From NCBI GenBank assembly GCA_029237825.1, contig JAQZBQ010000014.1, positions 1 to 64,000 of the forward strand: a stretch of 64,000 nucleotides of DNA, written 5' to 3'. The notes under the pieces are model-generated. The model was not told the origin of the DNA. It saw only the letters and a list, made by a program, of their open reading frames with translations, and searched no databases. Numbering within the stretch: the stretch's first letter is position 1; the number at the start of each line of letters is the position of its first letter. Position numbers and translations under genes: made by a program. Positions 54,391-62,242 of this stretch are shown piece by piece. The stretch is from Bacteroidota bacterium (GTDB taxonomy: Bacteria > Bacteroidota > Bacteroidia > B-17B0 > Aurantibacillaceae).

Positions 54391-57300
54391 TTAATAAACC
54401 AGGATCGGAACTGAAGTGGTTGTTACATTTTTTCCTCCGTCGCTCACATACAAATACAAACGGTACTTAGCCGGTTCGTTAGGAATTCTGATTCGGACAC
54501 TACGGCCATTTTCTGAAGGCGTTAATTCATCAACGCTTGCCATATACTCGTTCTTAAGCAATAACCATTCGTATTTAAAGTGCTGGCCGTGTGGCGCATT
54601 GGTGATGGTAGCAATGTCATATTCCCTACCAGGAAGCACTTGTTGTGGCAAGTCAATTTTAACAGAAGGAAAATCCTCACTCTTTTGATGCGTCCACAAT
54701 TCCTTCAATGCATAGTAACTTGGTTTTAAACGTCCCTGGTGATCACTCAACCCAAACCAGGTGTAACTACCCTCCATCCTATCGTGCCAGCAGTATGCGA
54801 ATCCTCCAATATTATCGCCCTTATTAGCAAGCACATAGGTTGACCATTGTTCTTTAAACCAATTTGCTTTTTCTTCGTCACTATCTTCTATCTGTCGCCC
54901 GTTAATGGCCTTGTTGTACCTTGGATCCCAGTAGCCACGTGGGCCAAATTCTGAAACAAGGTATGGTCGGGTAGAATCAAAGGCACAGAAAGTTTCTTTT
55001 AAAATGCTGATTTGCTCTTTGTAATATGAGTTGATACCAATTGCATCCAACGAAGGAGCTCCATCATGGAAAGCTGCTACTTCGCCCGGAAGCTGGTACT
55101 TCTCATGCTCCATCGAACTAAATACCGGACGGCCAGGATCGAGTTCATGAATGCGTTGTGCCATTTTTTCAAGCATCTTCACATAGGATTCACGAACCTT
55201 CGTAAGGTATGGTTTAGAAAAACGGTGCTTTAAAAGTCCCCAGGTTTCATTTCCCACCGACCAGGCTAATACCGATGGATGGTTCCGGAACTCCAATACT
55301 TTTTCTTCCACCTCCTTCATGTATTCGTTTACCCGTGCCGAGTCCCTGTAATAGTCTATTCTAGGATCAAACCAGAAACCATACTGCACCTTCAGGTTGT
55401 ATTCACCGGCAATATTCAGTACATTTTGATCATACATGCTAAACGAATAACGACGAATGGTATTTGCACCCATCGCGCTGATGCTGGCAAAATCTTCTTC
55501 AAGCCGGCGACGGGTTAAGGGCATGTTCCCATCACGCCAGTCATGACCGGTATTATAAGCCACTCCTCGAATGTAAAAGGGCTTATCATTTATCAGTAAC
55601 TGAAAGTTGCCGGTCTTCCCTTTAACAAACGGAGAATGGTAACGCTTGCGTACTGATTCGACTGCAGCAACAGAAGGCTGTTCATAAAAAGGTTTTTCTT
55701 TAAAGTAATCTTCTGTGTTTACATTTTCAAGTTTAACGATGGTATTCCCGTTCATACAGAAATCTGCTTTATACACCTCTTTTTGGCCGTTACCGTTTTT
55801 AATCCATTCCCGCTTTTGATTGAGGATAACTGCCGCTTTAATCTCTTTCATATTCTGGATGTCCTGGTAGGCTTTTGCCAACCATGAACTTTGAGCCGCA
55901 CTTCTTAGTGTTCCAAATTCTACTAGCATTACGGGTTTCCGGTGTTTTATCAGTTGTGGGCGATGAACAGCATACAATGTTTTAAACGATTTCCATTCAC
56001 CAGAGGTAGGATCGGAAGAATAATTTAAAGTTTTGACCCCTAACCAATCGACAAAGGATGTGCCCGGGAAATTTTTTTCAAAATTGCCTGACTCTGGGGT
56101 CCATACCCAGGTAATGTTTGAAACGCCGTTAGCATTGAAAAAAGTATAAAGGTATTGCCAGCCCCGCACCGCATCATTATCAGTATTACTTTTAGATTCA
56201 TTATAAAGTACCGGGTTCAAAAACACAGGGTTTGCAAACGTACGAAAAGTATTAGCATAGAACTTTAATTGTTCATCATATTTATTTTCCAGAACGCCCT
56301 TCCAGTCGGTTTGGTAAAATTCATTCAAAGGAAGGTGCCAGCTAATTAAAGGTGTATAGCCCTTTTCTGAAATCCGTTTTAAAATCTGGCCTGTATGGCC
56401 ACCACTTACAAGCGTGTCGTTAATCGTAATAAGATCAAAACTTCTTCCCATTTTTTTATCAAAATCCTGTGCAGAGGCAAGGTTCAGGTTTGATAAGGAA
56501 ATACCCTGGTAAAAACCACCAAGAAATTTTTCTCTGCGTTCATCTGCCAGCTCCAGTTCGCTTTCACTGTTACTGTAGCTCAAAAAAACCAGCGCGCCAG
56601 CTAGCAATAATACAACAGGCGCACTTTGTGCTAAAGCGTGAAAACTGTTTCTTGCTCTTGAGCTTAACCAATTATAGGCAGTAATCAACGGGGCTAAAAA
56701 AGGAATGCTATTTACCTTTGCATCAAGCGATTTTAACAATTTCTGCTGACTCATAACCACCACAAAACCCATTATACCAATATTTATTAATGCGTAAGAA
56801 GCCATCGCGATACTATATGGTGTCCAGTCAATTGATAAACCATAAAGAATCACAACAAAACAAATGATGGTTATGAGGAAGTTAGGGATACTGAGTTTCC
56901 AGTAGTTTTCGTGTACGTCTTCTTTGGGCGTTGGAATGTATGGCACTTTAATATTAAAAATTGAATACACGAATCCTACCAAAAAAATCCACCAGGTTGC
57001 AGTACGAAGGATACCACCGGCAAGGTGAAGTCCACGCTCATGCTTTTCAAGCAGCCACCGCTGAGCGAACAGTCGTATCACCAGAGATAGCGCGCATAGA
57101 GGAAGGAATAAAATCGCAAAATTATTTATATCTACTTCCCATGGAACCTCTGCCAGTACCAACGCCAAACTTGGAATCAATACATCAATCAGATTGATCA
57201 ATCCAAATAAAAAATAAAGAGGGATACACAGGTAATGAATTTTCTGACGCCATGTAAATTTTTTAAAGAGCCCGGGATAGGTATGAAACAAAAGCTCAAA

Positions 57301-58230
57301 TGTTCCACGCGACCATTTCAATTGTTGCTTATAGTATGCAGAAAGAGTTGCCGGAACCAGTCCTTTCGTGAGCATTTCTGGAACATAAATAGAACGCCAG
57401 CCTTTCGCATGAAGTTGCATTGCTGTATGCATATCTTCCGCCAAACCAGCCGCATGACCACCGATTGAATCGAGCGCCGAACGCCGGAATGTGCAGTTCG
57501 CACCAATAGCCTGCACAGTTCCATAGGTATTCATGCACATCATCATGGGACCGTAAAAGTGATAAGTCTGTTCAGCGGCACCACGCGCGATGATGCTTTC
57601 ATTTTGGTTATAATATCCTTGCACGCATTGCACATATCCAATCGTTTCATCTTCAAAGTATGGTAGTACCCGGTCAAGGAATTCGGGAACCGGAATATGG
57701 TCGGGATCAAGAACAACACAAATTTCTCCTGTTGCTTTACTGAGTGCATTATTAATGTTTCCGGCTTTAGCATTGGTTTTTATTTGTCGTGTTACATGAA
57801 TAACACCGAGCTCGTCGCAGATTCTTTTTAACGCTGGATCATTGCCTTCGTCACACAAATAGTTGGTATGCGGATAACGGATCGCAACCATCGCTTTCAA
57901 TGTGTTAATAATCATTTCCTGAGGTTCACCAGGACAAGCAGTAGTAAGTACATCTACTGTGTATTGCTTATAAGTGGAAGGCATTTCGGGAATACTTAAG
58001 CTCCAGTAATGGTACCATTCATGAAGCATTTTTATAAGTTTAAAGGCCAGGCCAAAACATAGCAGCCAGAATAAGGGTCCACATCCAATGTGTTCGGGAC
58101 GCGCAAACCACACAACAAAAATGAGCATAGTAATTAGACCGCAACTGATAAGAAACCGTATGGTACGGACATCCCACTTTTTTAACTGGCTTACTTTTAT
58201 AATAGATGGTGTTGCGTAATTCTGTTTCAT
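54391..58230 (-). CDS. Giant fusion: GT2 glycosyltransferase, GH26-like and GH2-like hydrolase domains
   Basis: 1279 residues from the ATG at 58230; the TTG upstream is less likely. Residues ~90-320 are a processive GT2 domain (LCDEGNDP, DPDH at ~174, AEDMHTAM, QQLKWSRG at ~303) with flanking membrane helices, as in cellulose synthase-like enzymes. After a helix at ~537, residues ~573-813 resemble a GH26-type barrel (WVWTPESGNFEKNFPG, VDWLGVKTL, KPVMLVEFGT). Residues ~875-1180 are a GH2-type barrel: INDKPFYIRGVAYN, SVGNETWG with the acid/base Glu (~993) and VSEFGPRG with the nucleophile (~1093). An Ig-like tail follows. The likely role is making and trimming an exported polysaccharide; the sugar is unknown. 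Confidence 0.85.
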   Translation of the reverse strand: MKQNYATPSIIKVSQLKKWDVRTIRFLISCGLITMLIFVVWFARPEHIGCGPLFWLLCFGLAFKLIKMLHEWYHYWSLSIPEMPSTYKQYTVDVLTTACPGEPQEMIINTLKAMVAIRYPHTNYLCDEGNDPALKRICDELGVIHVTRQIKTNAKAGNINNALSKATGEICVVLDPDHIPVPEFLDRVLPYFEDETIGYVQCVQGYYNQNESIIARGAAEQTYHFYGPMMMCMNTYGTVQAIGANCTFRRSALDSIGGHAAGLAEDMHTAMQLHAKGWRSIYVPEMLTKGLVPATLSAYYKQQLKWSRGTFELLFHTYPGLFKKFTWRQKIHYLCIPLYFLFGLINLIDVLIPSLALVLAEVPWEVDINNFAILFLPLCALSLVIRLFAQRWLLEKHERGLHLAGGILRTATWWIFLVGFVYSIFNIKVPYIPTPKEDVHENYWKLSIPNFLITIICFVVILYGLSIDWTPYSIAMASYALINIGIMGFVVVMSQQKLLKSLDAKVNSIPFLAPLITAYNWLSSRARNSFHALAQSAPVVLLLAGALVFLSYSNSESELELADERREKFLGGFYQGISLSNLNLASAQDFDKKMGRSFDLITINDTLVSGGHTGQILKRISEKGYTPLISWHLPLNEFYQTDWKGVLENKYDEQLKFYANTFRTFANPVFLNPVLYNESKSNTDNDAVRGWQYLYTFFNANGVSNITWVWTPESGNFEKNFPGTSFVDWLGVKTLNYSSDPTSGEWKSFKTLYAVHRPQLIKHRKPVMLVEFGTLRSAAQSSWLAKAYQDIQNMKEIKAAVILNQKREWIKNGNGQKEVYKADFCMNGNTIVKLENVNTEDYFKEKPFYEQPSVAAVESVRKRYHSPFVKGKTGNFQLLINDKPFYIRGVAYNTGHDWRDGNMPLTRRRLEEDFASISAMGANTIRRYSFSMYDQNVLNIAGEYNLKVQYGFWFDPRIDYYRDSARVNEYMKEVEEKVLEFRNHPSVLAWSVGNETWGLLKHRFSKPYLTKVRESYVKMLEKMAQRIHELDPGRPVFSSMEHEKYQLPGEVAAFHDGAPSLDAIGINSYYKEQISILKETFCAFDSTRPYLVSEFGPRGYWDPRYNKAINGRQIEDSDEEKANWFKEQWSTYVLANKGDNIGGFAYCWHDRMEGSYTWFGLSDHQGRLKPSYYALKELWTHQKSEDFPSVKIDLPQQVLPGREYDIATITNAPHGQHFKYEWLLLKNEYMASVDELTPSENGRSVRIRIPNEPAKYRLYLYVSDGGKNVTTTSVPILVY

Positions 58231-60014: not shown

Positions 60015-60704
60015 TCATTTTTTGAGCCCGGAAACACCATCCGGGCTTTTTTCGTGAAAGGAATTCTCCTTCAAAATTCGCCACGTGAAAACTGCGATAA
60101 CCGAGCCAACTATAGGTGCGAGTACATACACCCATAAATAATGTGTATGACCCGAAACGAAAGCCGGGCCAACAGATCGCGCAGGGTTCATCGATGCGCC
60201 TGATACAGGGCCCGCGAACATAGCTTCCAGTAAAACCACAGAACCAATTGCGAGGCCGGCAAACATCCCTTGTTCATTACTTCCTTTGGCTACATGAAGA
60301 ATCGTTAGCATAAGAAAAAACGTAAGAATAATTTCCATGATACCGGCCTGCCAACCAGAACCGGACGGCAACGTCGTTCCTAAAAGTTGGTTTGCCGGAA
60401 ATAGCAATTGCAAAATGAAACTTGCCAGGAATGCTCCGGTGATCTGGCTGAATACATAGGGAACAATCTCCTTTGCAGGAAAAAGCCTCGCGAGCCAAAA
60501 CCCAAATGTAACAGCGGGGTTGAAATGTGCACCAGAGATTTCGCCCAGGGTATAAATCATTGCTGCTACAATCAAACCGAAGGTTACAGCTATTCCAGCA
60601 TGCGTGATTACGCCTCCCGATTCCTGATTAACAATAATGGCACCAGTTCCGCAAAAAACAATGGCAAAGGTCCCAATCATTTCAGCTAAATACTTTCTCA
60701 TCAT
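60015..60704 (-). CDS. MIP-family aquaporin/aquaglyceroporin of the arsenic operon
   Basis: A 229-residue channel with six helices and two half helices. Both NPA boxes are present: GAHFNPAVTFGF and GASMNPARSVGPAF. Position behind an arsenate reductase gene matches the aqpS-type modules, where arsenite made by ArsC leaves the cell through the channel. No ArsB or Acr3 pump is in the window, so this would be the exit route here; that is inference. Its first 23 bases overlap the arsC 3' end. The last ~10 codons run through the terminator hairpin at 60025-60052. Confidence 0.92.
   Translation of the reverse strand: MMRKYLAEMIGTFAIVFCGTGAIIVNQESGGVITHAGIAVTFGLIVAAMIYTLGEISGAHFNPAVTFGFWLARLFPAKEIVPYVFSQITGAFLASFILQLLFPANQLLGTTLPSGSGWQAGIMEIILTFFLMLTILHVAKGSNEQGMFAGLAIGSVVLLEAMFAGPVSGASMNPARSVGPAFVSGHTHYLWVYVLAPIVGSVIAVFTWRILKENSFHEKSPDGVSGLKK
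60025..60052 (+). terminator. Terminator after the 48-residue ORF, inside the MIP gene 3' end
   Basis: The stem AGCCCGG / CCGGGCT with a nine-base loop is followed by six T residues on the plus strand. It lies within the last codons of the leftward channel gene, so the same DNA encodes the channel tail and ends the opposing transcript. Confidence 0.82.
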
Positions 60705-61323
60705 TTTTAAAATTTACTTTAGAAAAAACATATAACGATTCCAATGCAATCAGGCGGCTGCATGAATGGTACATGTCATCCTGCTGTGGACTGTGATCGG
60801 ACTCTTTAGGATCTTTGTAAGGGGTGGCTATCCGTAATTCCACACCAGGAATAAATGGACAATTTTTCTCGGCATCTCCGCAGGTCATGATAGCAGCAAC
60901 GTGAGTATTAGGATTGAAGGAATCATCATACGTTTTAGAAAAACAGGTAAGAGGCTCCTCGTTCAGATCATAATAAACTTCATATACAGGGTTAATCTCC
61001 CCGGATACCCTCCGGATATCAAACCCGATTCTCTGAAGAGCCCGAATGGCATTGGGATGAAAGGCCGTAACCTCAGTCCCTCCCGAAAATGTATGAATAC
61101 CCTTCACATGAAAATAGGCTGCAGCTACCTGCGCCCATATCTGACCAAAATGGCTGCGACGGGAGTTATGGGTACACACATACATCAGTTGAACAGGCAT
61201 ACCTTTGTGTAACTTTTCAGAAATGTATCCGGCAATTTTTTCTAAAGCCTCTTTTCGTTCTTCGGGAATACTAGTAAACTCAAGTGCTAATTCACTGCAG
61301 AAGGTTTGAATCGCATGTATCAT
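60682..61323 (-). CDS. arsC: Arsenate reductase-like low-molecular-weight phosphatase
   Basis: 213 residues from the ATG at 61323, which lies 13 bases after the DUF6428 gene and matches the usual N-terminus (IHAIQTFCSELALEFTSIP); an upstream ATG at 61383 would overlap that gene by 47 bases. The phosphatase loop is VCTHNSRRSHFGQIWAQ (C-x5-R). ATP-free thioredoxin-type enzymes also need two resolving cysteines; candidates are in AAIMTCGDAEKNCPFIPG. The product reduces arsenate to arsenite. It is longer than ArsC of S. aureus (131), as usual for this subgroup. Confidence 0.9.
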   Translation of the reverse strand: MIHAIQTFCSELALEFTSIPEERKEALEKIAGYISEKLHKGMPVQLMYVCTHNSRRSHFGQIWAQVAAAYFHVKGIHTFSGGTEVTAFHPNAIRALQRIGFDIRRVSGEINPVYEVYYDLNEEPLTCFSKTYDDSFNPNTHVAAIMTCGDAEKNCPFIPGVELRIATPYKDPKESDHSPQQDDMYHSCSRLIALESLYVFSKVNFKNDEKVFS

Positions 61324-61336
61324 AAACTGATTTGGC

Positions 61337-61810
61337 TTAGCAACAATTACTTCCCGGTGTGCAGCAGGAATTTTGATTAACACTCGGGTCTTTCAGTTTC
61401 ACATTCATTTTTTCGGGTGGTATACCGCATGCGTCGCTGGCTAAACAATTGGTTTGCTTAGCGGTTAACAGGAAATGACCATCTTTAAAGTCCATGCCAT
61501 ATTTTCCAATGGTATTGCCCTGGTACTCCACTTCTATCTCTGCATCCTCTACACCCAATACTTTTTCTGATAAAGCAATAATCGCACTTAATTTTTGCGG
61601 CGCTAAATGGTGATCATAATCGCCCGCTTCCCATAGTTGAAAGCTCACTACTTTCTCATGTCGAACTGTTCCGCCACAATCAATAAAGTGTTTAATAACC
61701 TGCCCTACTTCTGTGACGTGAAAATGATCAGGAACGTTAGTCCCGTCGGGTAAGCTAAAATGCAAGGTCTCTAAGGAATTTAAATGGCTTTTGAATTCGG
61801 ATAATTTCAT
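61337..61810 (-). CDS. DUF6428 protein of the arsenic operon
   Basis: A 157-residue protein with LSEFKSHLNSLETLHFSLPDG, VPDHFHVTEVGQV, FIDCGGTVRHEKVVSFQLWE and HHLAPQKLSAIIALSEKVLG, all typical of the DUF6428 family found between arsR and arsC in Bacteroidota. The tail carries paired cysteines (NSCCTPGSNCC), which could bind arsenite or transfer it. The family's function is not known. It lies 41 bases after arsR. Confidence 0.88.
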   Translation of the reverse strand: MKLSEFKSHLNSLETLHFSLPDGTNVPDHFHVTEVGQVIKHFIDCGGTVRHEKVVSFQLWEAGDYDHHLAPQKLSAIIALSEKVLGVEDAEIEVEYQGNTIGKYGMDFKDGHFLLTAKQTNCLASDACGIPPEKMNVKLKDPSVNQNSCCTPGSNCC

Positions 61811-61851
61811 GGTTTCTATTTTAATCGGTTAATAACGATATTTAAAGTTTA

Positions 61852-62181
61852 TTAGCAGCATTTGTTTTTCGACTGGAACGATGAAAATAATGTTTCCAGA
61901 TAAGAACTAGCCTGTCCCCATTCTTTCTCATCTATACAATAACATACTTTCACACCCTCGATATCGCCTTTTATTAAACCTGCTTCTTTCAGTTCCTTCA
62001 AATGCTGTGAAACCGTGCTTTGTGAAAGAGGCAACTCATCTACAATATCGCCGCAAATACAGGACTGTTTTTTTATCAGGAGCTGAAGTATTGCTACGCG
62101 GGCAGGATGAGCAAGTGCTTTCGCATACCGAGCAATTTTATTATCACGCACAGTGAATTCTTCCGCTTTTGTTGATCCCAT
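61852..62181 (-). CDS. arsR: ArsR-family arsenic-responsive repressor
   Basis: 109 residues from ATG 62181; the longer frame starting with GTG 62220 would run through the operator palindrome. The winged helix spans [18 protein letters not shown] to [20 protein letters not shown]. The Cys-bearing segment [12 protein letters not shown] near the recognition helix and the C-terminal FQSKNKCC could bind As(III). The repressor is expected to leave DNA when As(III) binds. It is the first gene of the ars operon. Confidence 0.92.
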
Positions 62182-62190
62182 CACTTTTAA

Positions 62191-62212
62191 TTTATCGTAA
62201 AGATACGATAAA
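62191..62212. promoter_or_regulatory. ArsR operator palindrome
   Basis: Nine-base arms TTTATCGTA and TACGATAAA are separated by AAGA. The palindrome is perfect and lies ten bases before the arsR start. The size and form are those of ArsR/SmtB-type operators, so autoregulation of the operon is very likely. Confidence 0.8.
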
Positions 62213-62242
62213 GCATACACAATTCCAAATCTATCTACAACC

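Follow-up and report, generated by a model that had tools for sequence, protein, structure and literature searches.

Cyclic beta-1,2-glucan synthases of the GT84-GH94 type provide a precedent for the polymerization and processing of a glycan by one and the same protein. In pseudomonads, BcsA-like 'Orphan' GH17-GT2 proteins (NdvB in P. aeruginosa) have been proposed to act as cyclic beta-1,3-glucan synthases, and a phosphoglycerol decoration of the OpgB/MdoB type has been postulated for GH17-GT2 systems, with one adjacent MdoB homolog found in Desulfofustis (PMC10237404). Among glycanases, BuGH158 is a strict endo-beta-1,3-glucanase in which N136, E137 and E220 are each essential by mutagenesis (PMC7157763); a further solved GH158 (9oro/9p2f) was soaked with laminaritetraose and with G4G3G.

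Here we describe a protein encoded in a 64,000-nucleotide stretch of Bacteroidota DNA (contig JAQZBQ010000014.1, positions 1 to 64,000; hereafter the window). Like the GH17-GT2 proteins, it combines a BcsA-like GT2 with a clan-A glucanase/transglycosylase-type barrel, predicted to be periplasmic, in one chain; in those proteins, however, the GH17 barrel precedes the GT2, whereas in the present protein the synthase comes first and is followed by two barrels, one GH26-fold and one GH158-like, and the fusion has a stand-alone GH158 gene as its companion. Pfam detected no GH17 module in the 1279-residue protein, which leaves the functional analogy unaffected, and neither GT84 nor GH94. An earlier note, made from the sequence of the window, had called a protein that both makes and cuts a glycan unusual, but the pseudomonad proteins and the GT84-GH94 synthase are precedents. 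Our literature search found no GT2-GH26-GH158 protein, nor any GT2-GH26 protein of Hymenobacter or Spirosoma.

Results

The gene is a single frame of 1279 residues without internal stop, read from 58230 down to 54391 on the minus strand, with the following features (all minus strand):

54391..58230, minus: whole gene, GT2 / GH26-like / GH158-like / Ig-like fusion, 1279 aa plus stop
56620..58182, minus: BcsA-type GT2 synthase, residues 17-537 (sequence searches, motifs, fold match to 9b8v)
56581..56637, minus: last transmembrane (TM) helix, residues 532-550 (hydropathy, positive-inside count)
55678..56520, minus: GH26-fold module, lichenase-like, acid/base lost, residues 571-851 (fold and sequence searches)
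56203..56208, minus: L675-Y676, in place of the His-Glu (acid/base) of active GH26 relatives (family alignment)
55918..55920, minus: E771, GH26 nucleophile position, Glu retained (family alignment)
54679..55632, minus: GH158-like clan-A barrel, catalytic residues intact, residues 867-1184 (sequence and fold)
55246..55251, minus: N994-E995, acid/base pair, equivalent to N136-E137 of BuGH158 (alignment)
54949..54951, minus: E1094, nucleophile, equivalent to E220 of BuGH158 (alignment)
54394..54663, minus: C-terminal Ig-like beta-sandwich common to GH158 enzymes, residues 1190-1279 (sequence and model)

The chain thus begins with a BcsA-type GT2 synthase, continues as a GH26-fold barrel and ends, as its third module, with a clan-A barrel and an Ig-like domain. 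Pfam recognized the GT2 (E 4e-24) and a GH2-type barrel (E 8e-16), and weakly a GH26 (E 5e-5), and sequence searches of the PDB matched residues 9-401 to BcsA (E 4e-36), 678-812 to the lichenase CtLic26A (E 3e-10) and 874-1278 to GH158 (E 6e-27). AlphaFold2 models of residues 1-1190 (54 family sequences as input; pLDDT 87.2, pTM 0.72) and 566-1279 (18 sequences as input; pLDDT 85.9, pTM 0.87) were compared with solved structures using VIA-align 2. Searches and models bear out the layout given in the earlier note, of one 1279-residue polypeptide with three modules; its labels 'mannanase-like' and 'GH2-like' for the second and third modules did not survive, and it had omitted the strand, which is minus. 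An assembly error or chance is ruled out by full-length orthologs with 53-76% identity in six further members of the family, by more fusions among named genomes and by the recurring GT2-GH26-clan-A order. The fusion of three enzyme folds is confirmed as real.

The GT2 module comprises an N-terminal pair of TM helices, a cytosolic GT-A domain and channel TM helices, and its model matches BcsA (9b8v; Z 32.9, rmsd 2.7, 470 aligned residues). In 54 family proteins, D127, D175 and D177 (DxD), E265, Q302 and W306 are invariant, and D266 is kept with a single exception (53/54). The QxxRW motif reads Q302QLKW306, with K305 replacing arginine in all 54. The sequence YIPTPK at 431-436, in which Y431, P433, T434, P435 and K436 are invariant in the 54 proteins, resembles a gating loop, and we take it to be the counterpart of the BcsA gating loop, where the motif is FxVTxK. 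The proposal of a membrane polysaccharide synthase, against which absent GT2 catalytic residues would have counted, therefore stands: these residues are present and conserved, on a BcsA fold. The module shares with BcsA the GT2 motifs, the channel and the gating-loop-like motif, but differs in having QxxKW instead of QxxRW, no PilZ domain detectable by Pfam in the 1279-residue protein, and a C terminus that runs into two barrels. It also fails the test for BcsA proper, scoring 164 bits against a cut-off of 699 with the CelA NCBIfam equivalog. Hydropathy analysis places TM helices at 24-42, 48-66, 341-359, 371-389, 451-469, 474-492 and 532-550, and the distribution of positive residues (positive-inside count) fits a GT domain in the cytosol and barrels in the periplasm. 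Helix 532-550 is accordingly predicted to lead from the cytosol out into the periplasm, which would place both barrels outside.

The middle module superimposes on CtLic26A of Clostridium thermocellum (2bv9; Z 28.9, rmsd 2.4, 260 aligned residues; 18% identity), confirming the GH26 fold that had been proposed; on both sequence and fold, identity as a mannanase was dropped in favor of this lichenase, a beta-1,3-1,4-glucanase. Although the two share the GH26 fold, the catalytic acid/base is missing in the window module, as the earlier note had suspected. The nucleophile E771 is present in the window protein, and several orthologs have no Glu there. Because the acid/base His-Glu is replaced by L675-Y676, this module is probably non-catalytic.

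The last barrel with its Ig-like domain matches GH158 9oro (Z 38.0, rmsd 2.7, 370 aligned residues), and PDB sequence matches of this barrel are led by 9oro (E 1e-28) and 6pal (E 7e-20), followed by a beta-glucuronidase of GH2 (E 5e-10). The barrel, the Ig fold and the catalytic Asn-Glu/Glu set that define GH158 were all found, so that the intact Glu pair suggested previously (N994-E995 and E1094) is upheld. Identity as GH2 was rejected: Pfam names GH2_C, yet GH158 comes first by a wide margin in PDB sequence and fold searches. In addition, the barrel of GH2 enzymes is preceded by a sugar-binding and an Ig domain, whereas in the 1279-residue protein a GH26 module precedes it and the Ig domain trails it, the latter as in GH158. 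We assign the barrel as GH158-like, its sequence and model being nearer to GH158, a family of endo-beta-1,3-glucanases, than to other clan-A families. BuGH158 (6PAL) and GH158(Pro) (9ORO) likewise have the barrel plus Ig-like domain and the Asn-Glu/Glu set, and roughly 370 residues align with them at Z 37-38, but identity is only 26-28%, and the barrel is tethered to a synthase here, whereas those enzymes serve glucan uptake.

Among 87 genomes from the family-level group to which the source genome belongs, 7 (this one included) carry the fusion. A scan of a species-genome collection with two peptide patterns, which undercounts relatives, yielded 59 loci, 17 of which hold a three-module protein; wherever a taxon is given these are Bacteroidota, with one weak GH-only match (L109) for which the phylum is unstated. 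Relatives at E below 1e-60 occur in 16 of 395 genomes spread over Bacteroidota, a sample that adds six full-length three-module proteins (L112-L117) and brings the total to about two dozen. Two-module GT2-GH26 proteins (n = 36, 813-872 aa) are found in Hymenobacter, Spirosoma, Larkinella, Fibrella, Rudanella and others. Two loci (L120, L121) encode GT2-GH158-like proteins with a GH26 gene nearby, and in three (L041, L106, L123) the genes are fully split, the GT2 adjoining a membrane-anchored GH26 with intact motifs (HEMN ... EFG). This is a conserved Bacteroidota protein family, not a one-off.

The catalytic sets of the two barrels decay reciprocally. In type I (the window protein and 15 others) the GH158-like set is intact and the GH26 acid/base is lost; in type II (Paucihalobacter L072 and L112-L116) the GH26 pair is intact and the GH158-like set is lost. 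One protein (L058) retains both sets, in another (L117) both are damaged, and the GH158-like set is not intact in L120 and L121, which lack GH26 in cis, or in a fragment (L122). Sequence conservation follows the same division: mean pairwise identities (%) are 68 for GT2, 26 for GH26 and 59 for the GH158-like module in type I (n = 16), with GH26 exceeding GH158-like in 0 of 120 pairs, and 62, 44.5 and 35.5, respectively, in type II (n = 6), with GH26 above GH158-like in 15 of 15 pairs, the pairs not being independent. In a tree of the GT2 part, type II, L117, L120 and L121 form one supported group (99/98); type I proteins as a whole group together only weakly (48/65), and the root is uncertain. 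Because of this common grouping and the non-independence of the pairs, the reciprocal decay may come down to just two or three events. A three-module ancestor with both barrels active is plausible, since split genes carry intact GH26 and L058 keeps both sets.

In the window, the fusion gene is preceded upstream (5') by a gene for a low-affinity iron permease and, further away, an apparent arsenic operon; downstream of the fusion gene, an Hsp20 gene is convergent with it. No further polysaccharide gene was seen among these neighbors. The earlier note had concluded that the rest of a cluster is missing, but most relatives have GH158 close by. In 50 of the 59 scanned loci, a stand-alone GH158 with intact residues is encoded near the synthase gene, on either side of it and in either orientation, most often as its direct neighbor. 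This protein carries an N-terminal signal or anchor, and its profile (A2) matches 9oro (E 6e-97) and BuGH158 (E 1e-72). Origin of the three-module protein by fusion of the adjacent GH158 was rejected, as that neighbor still stands beside the fusion and is only about 25% identical to the fused barrel. In the source genome, the stand-alone partner lies on another contig (C33), away from the fusion. In another genome (G071), the fusion has the iron permease one gene away on one side and GH158 and further genes on the other; because the same block of further genes trails GH158 on C33, a rearrangement in the line of the window probably separated fusion and GH158.

In seven loci, the gene directly downstream of the fusion encodes an LtaS/OpgB-like protein. 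It is about 810 aa long (in L054 it is divided between two frames) and combines some six TM helices with a domain of the sulfatase superfamily. Among solved structures, VP1736 and LtaS-type proteins come closest to it, and two NCBIfam models, for phosphoglycerol transferase I and for lipoteichoic acid synthase, match below cut-off. In the source genome, its homologs are all distant (21-24% identity). A phosphoglucomutase gene is found near the fusion in two loci (L035, L036). Separately, a 610-aa GT2/STAS locus lies near the fusion in two genomes (G024, G013) and is also present in two fusion-negative ones (G014, G031).

Discussion

On balance, we favor a beta-glucan synthase of the inner membrane that carries a periplasmic processing glycanase in cis, a reading that we hold with some confidence. 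The notion that one chain both polymerizes and cuts a glycan is supported by the GT2 residues and an active-looking second barrel. The product is read as a beta-glucan because both glycanase modules are nearest to beta-glucan enzymes, CtLic26A and GH158. The GT2 would polymerize glucose from UDP-glucose in the cytosol, as its fold and motifs allow, and the growing chain would be threaded through the membrane channel into the periplasm, where the tethered, dead GH26-fold module may bind or guide it and the GH158-like module, with its catalytic residues in place, would cut or transglycosylate it. The most likely product would be a short, possibly cyclized, beta-1,3- or mixed-linkage beta-1,3/1,4-glucan; a definitive linkage signature is not known for GT2 sequences (PMC10237404). 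The separate GH158, to judge from synteny, may work in the same pathway, and in some species the product probably receives a phospho-substituent from the membrane-bound LtaS/OpgB-like transferase. In-cis processing is favored by the intact GH158-like set of all 16 type I proteins and L058. The reciprocal decay, the stand-alone GH158 near most synthase genes, the LtaS/OpgB-like neighbors and the split genes with intact GH26 also speak for the favored reading. Selection would keep the processing step through the GH158-like module in one lineage and through GH26 in another: the cutting step seems to be what matters, and the barrel that catalyzes it seems swappable between lineages.

More tentatively, the system may correspond, in Bacteroidota, to the osmoregulated periplasmic glucans, self-contained in making, cutting and perhaps circularizing a beta-1,3/1,4-glucan, with the catalytic role exchanged between modules and an OpgB-like phospho-decoration. 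This idea arises mainly because the LtaS/OpgB-like neighbors parallel the pseudomonad GH17-GT2 systems; the presence of that gene in only part of the loci, with none but distant homologs in the source genome, counts against the favored reading.

Periplasmic glycanases tied to synthases are common in exopolysaccharide (EPS) systems, and the fusion might likewise carry a quality-control hydrolase in cis, BcsZ- or PgaB-like, that trims or releases a long, cellulose-like secreted EPS. The BcsA-type fold of the GT2 and the phosphoglucomutase neighbors would agree with such a role, but the recurrent partners are GH158 and, in seven loci, the LtaS/OpgB-like transferase, and no BcsB- or BcsC-like genes occur among the annotated neighbors at four loci (L035, L036, L037, L041), most neighbors elsewhere being without annotation. 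We regard this possibility as rather unlikely.

Somewhat less likely still is a product other than beta-glucan, that is, another synthase-dependent polysaccharide, as is probably made by the Sinorhizobium meliloti pSymB operon of GT2, DUF995 and GH26 (L126). That operon likewise pairs a synthase with a GH26 and is homologous to the split-gene Bacteroidota pair (28% identity between its GH26 and that of G067), its GT2 being 27% identical to that of the window protein, but its genes are separate, GH158 is absent, and UDP-sugar-modifying genes (UDP-glucuronic acid decarboxylase, galE) are present, so that pairing of synthase and GH26 need not mean a glucan. It may resemble the arabinose-containing polysaccharide locus. 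By contrast, the annotated neighbors at the same four Bacteroidota loci include no UDP-sugar-modifying genes, and an unrelated GH158, a family whose characterized member acts on beta-1,3-glucan, occurs twice, in cis and in trans.

That both barrels only bind glycan and the separate GH158 is the sole enzyme is improbable: GH26 has decayed in most members and the GH158-like barrel in the Paucihalobacter lineage, and proteins of the two-module type whose GH26 is dead are still found next to an intact stand-alone GH158, yet the lineage of the window keeps the GH158-like set invariant and this module nearly as conserved as the synthase.

If the processing-synthase reading is true, the family would be a second, independent fused 'polymerize and process' glucan synthase, outside Proteobacteria. 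The reciprocal decay raises its interest beyond that of a simple synthase-glycanase fusion, as it would amount to a natural experiment in which either barrel may lose catalysis while some processing enzyme stays. Genes that automated annotation would label as cellulose synthase, mannanase and beta-galactosidase would then belong to a single pathway, open to testing in culturable members of Hymenobacter, Spirosoma, Larkinella and Paucihalobacter.

Gene neighbourhood of the fusion

The three-module fusion (GT2, GH26-like and GH158-like) is adjoined in G075, the genome of the closest relative, by the same gene block that the window carries as an apparent arsenic operon:

60015-62220, minus strand: aquaglyceroporin-like channel, ArsC-like phosphatase and ArsR-type regulator, the names being a reading of the sequences

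The cargo of the channel, on the same reading, is perhaps arsenite. Two further loci were considered:

L036, 12561-14987: gene for the LtaS/OpgB-like partner of the fusion
L048, 118000-137000 of contig C13 in genome G000: conserved locus

In the former, ~145 residues precede the first predicted transmembrane helix; judged from its sequence, this N-terminal part looks like a domain of the starch/glycogen-binding type, and Pfam gave no match within it. The latter encodes a second cellulose-synthase-like GT2 (610 aa), a STAS-domain protein, T9SS-sorted proteins, a GH57 protein and a GT4, and loci of this type are linked to the fusion in genomes G024 and G013 only.

Relatives and a probable rearrangement

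Three more loci were noted:

L126, Sinorhizobium meliloti pSymB: operon of a GT2 synthase, two DUF995 proteins and a GH26
L040, 16415-17551: gene for a tyrosine recombinase, directly following the fusion in G075
L070, Fibrisoma limi plasmid pFLIM01: two-module (GT2-GH26) family member with an adjacent GH158 gene

The split GT2 and GH26 genes of Bacteroidota are homologous to the GT2 and GH26 of the S. meliloti operon. The recombinase gene may be connected with the event, probably a rearrangement in the window's line, that parted the fusion from its GH158 partner, and the two-module synthase and its GH158 gene, being plasmid-borne in F. limi, may constitute a mobile pair.
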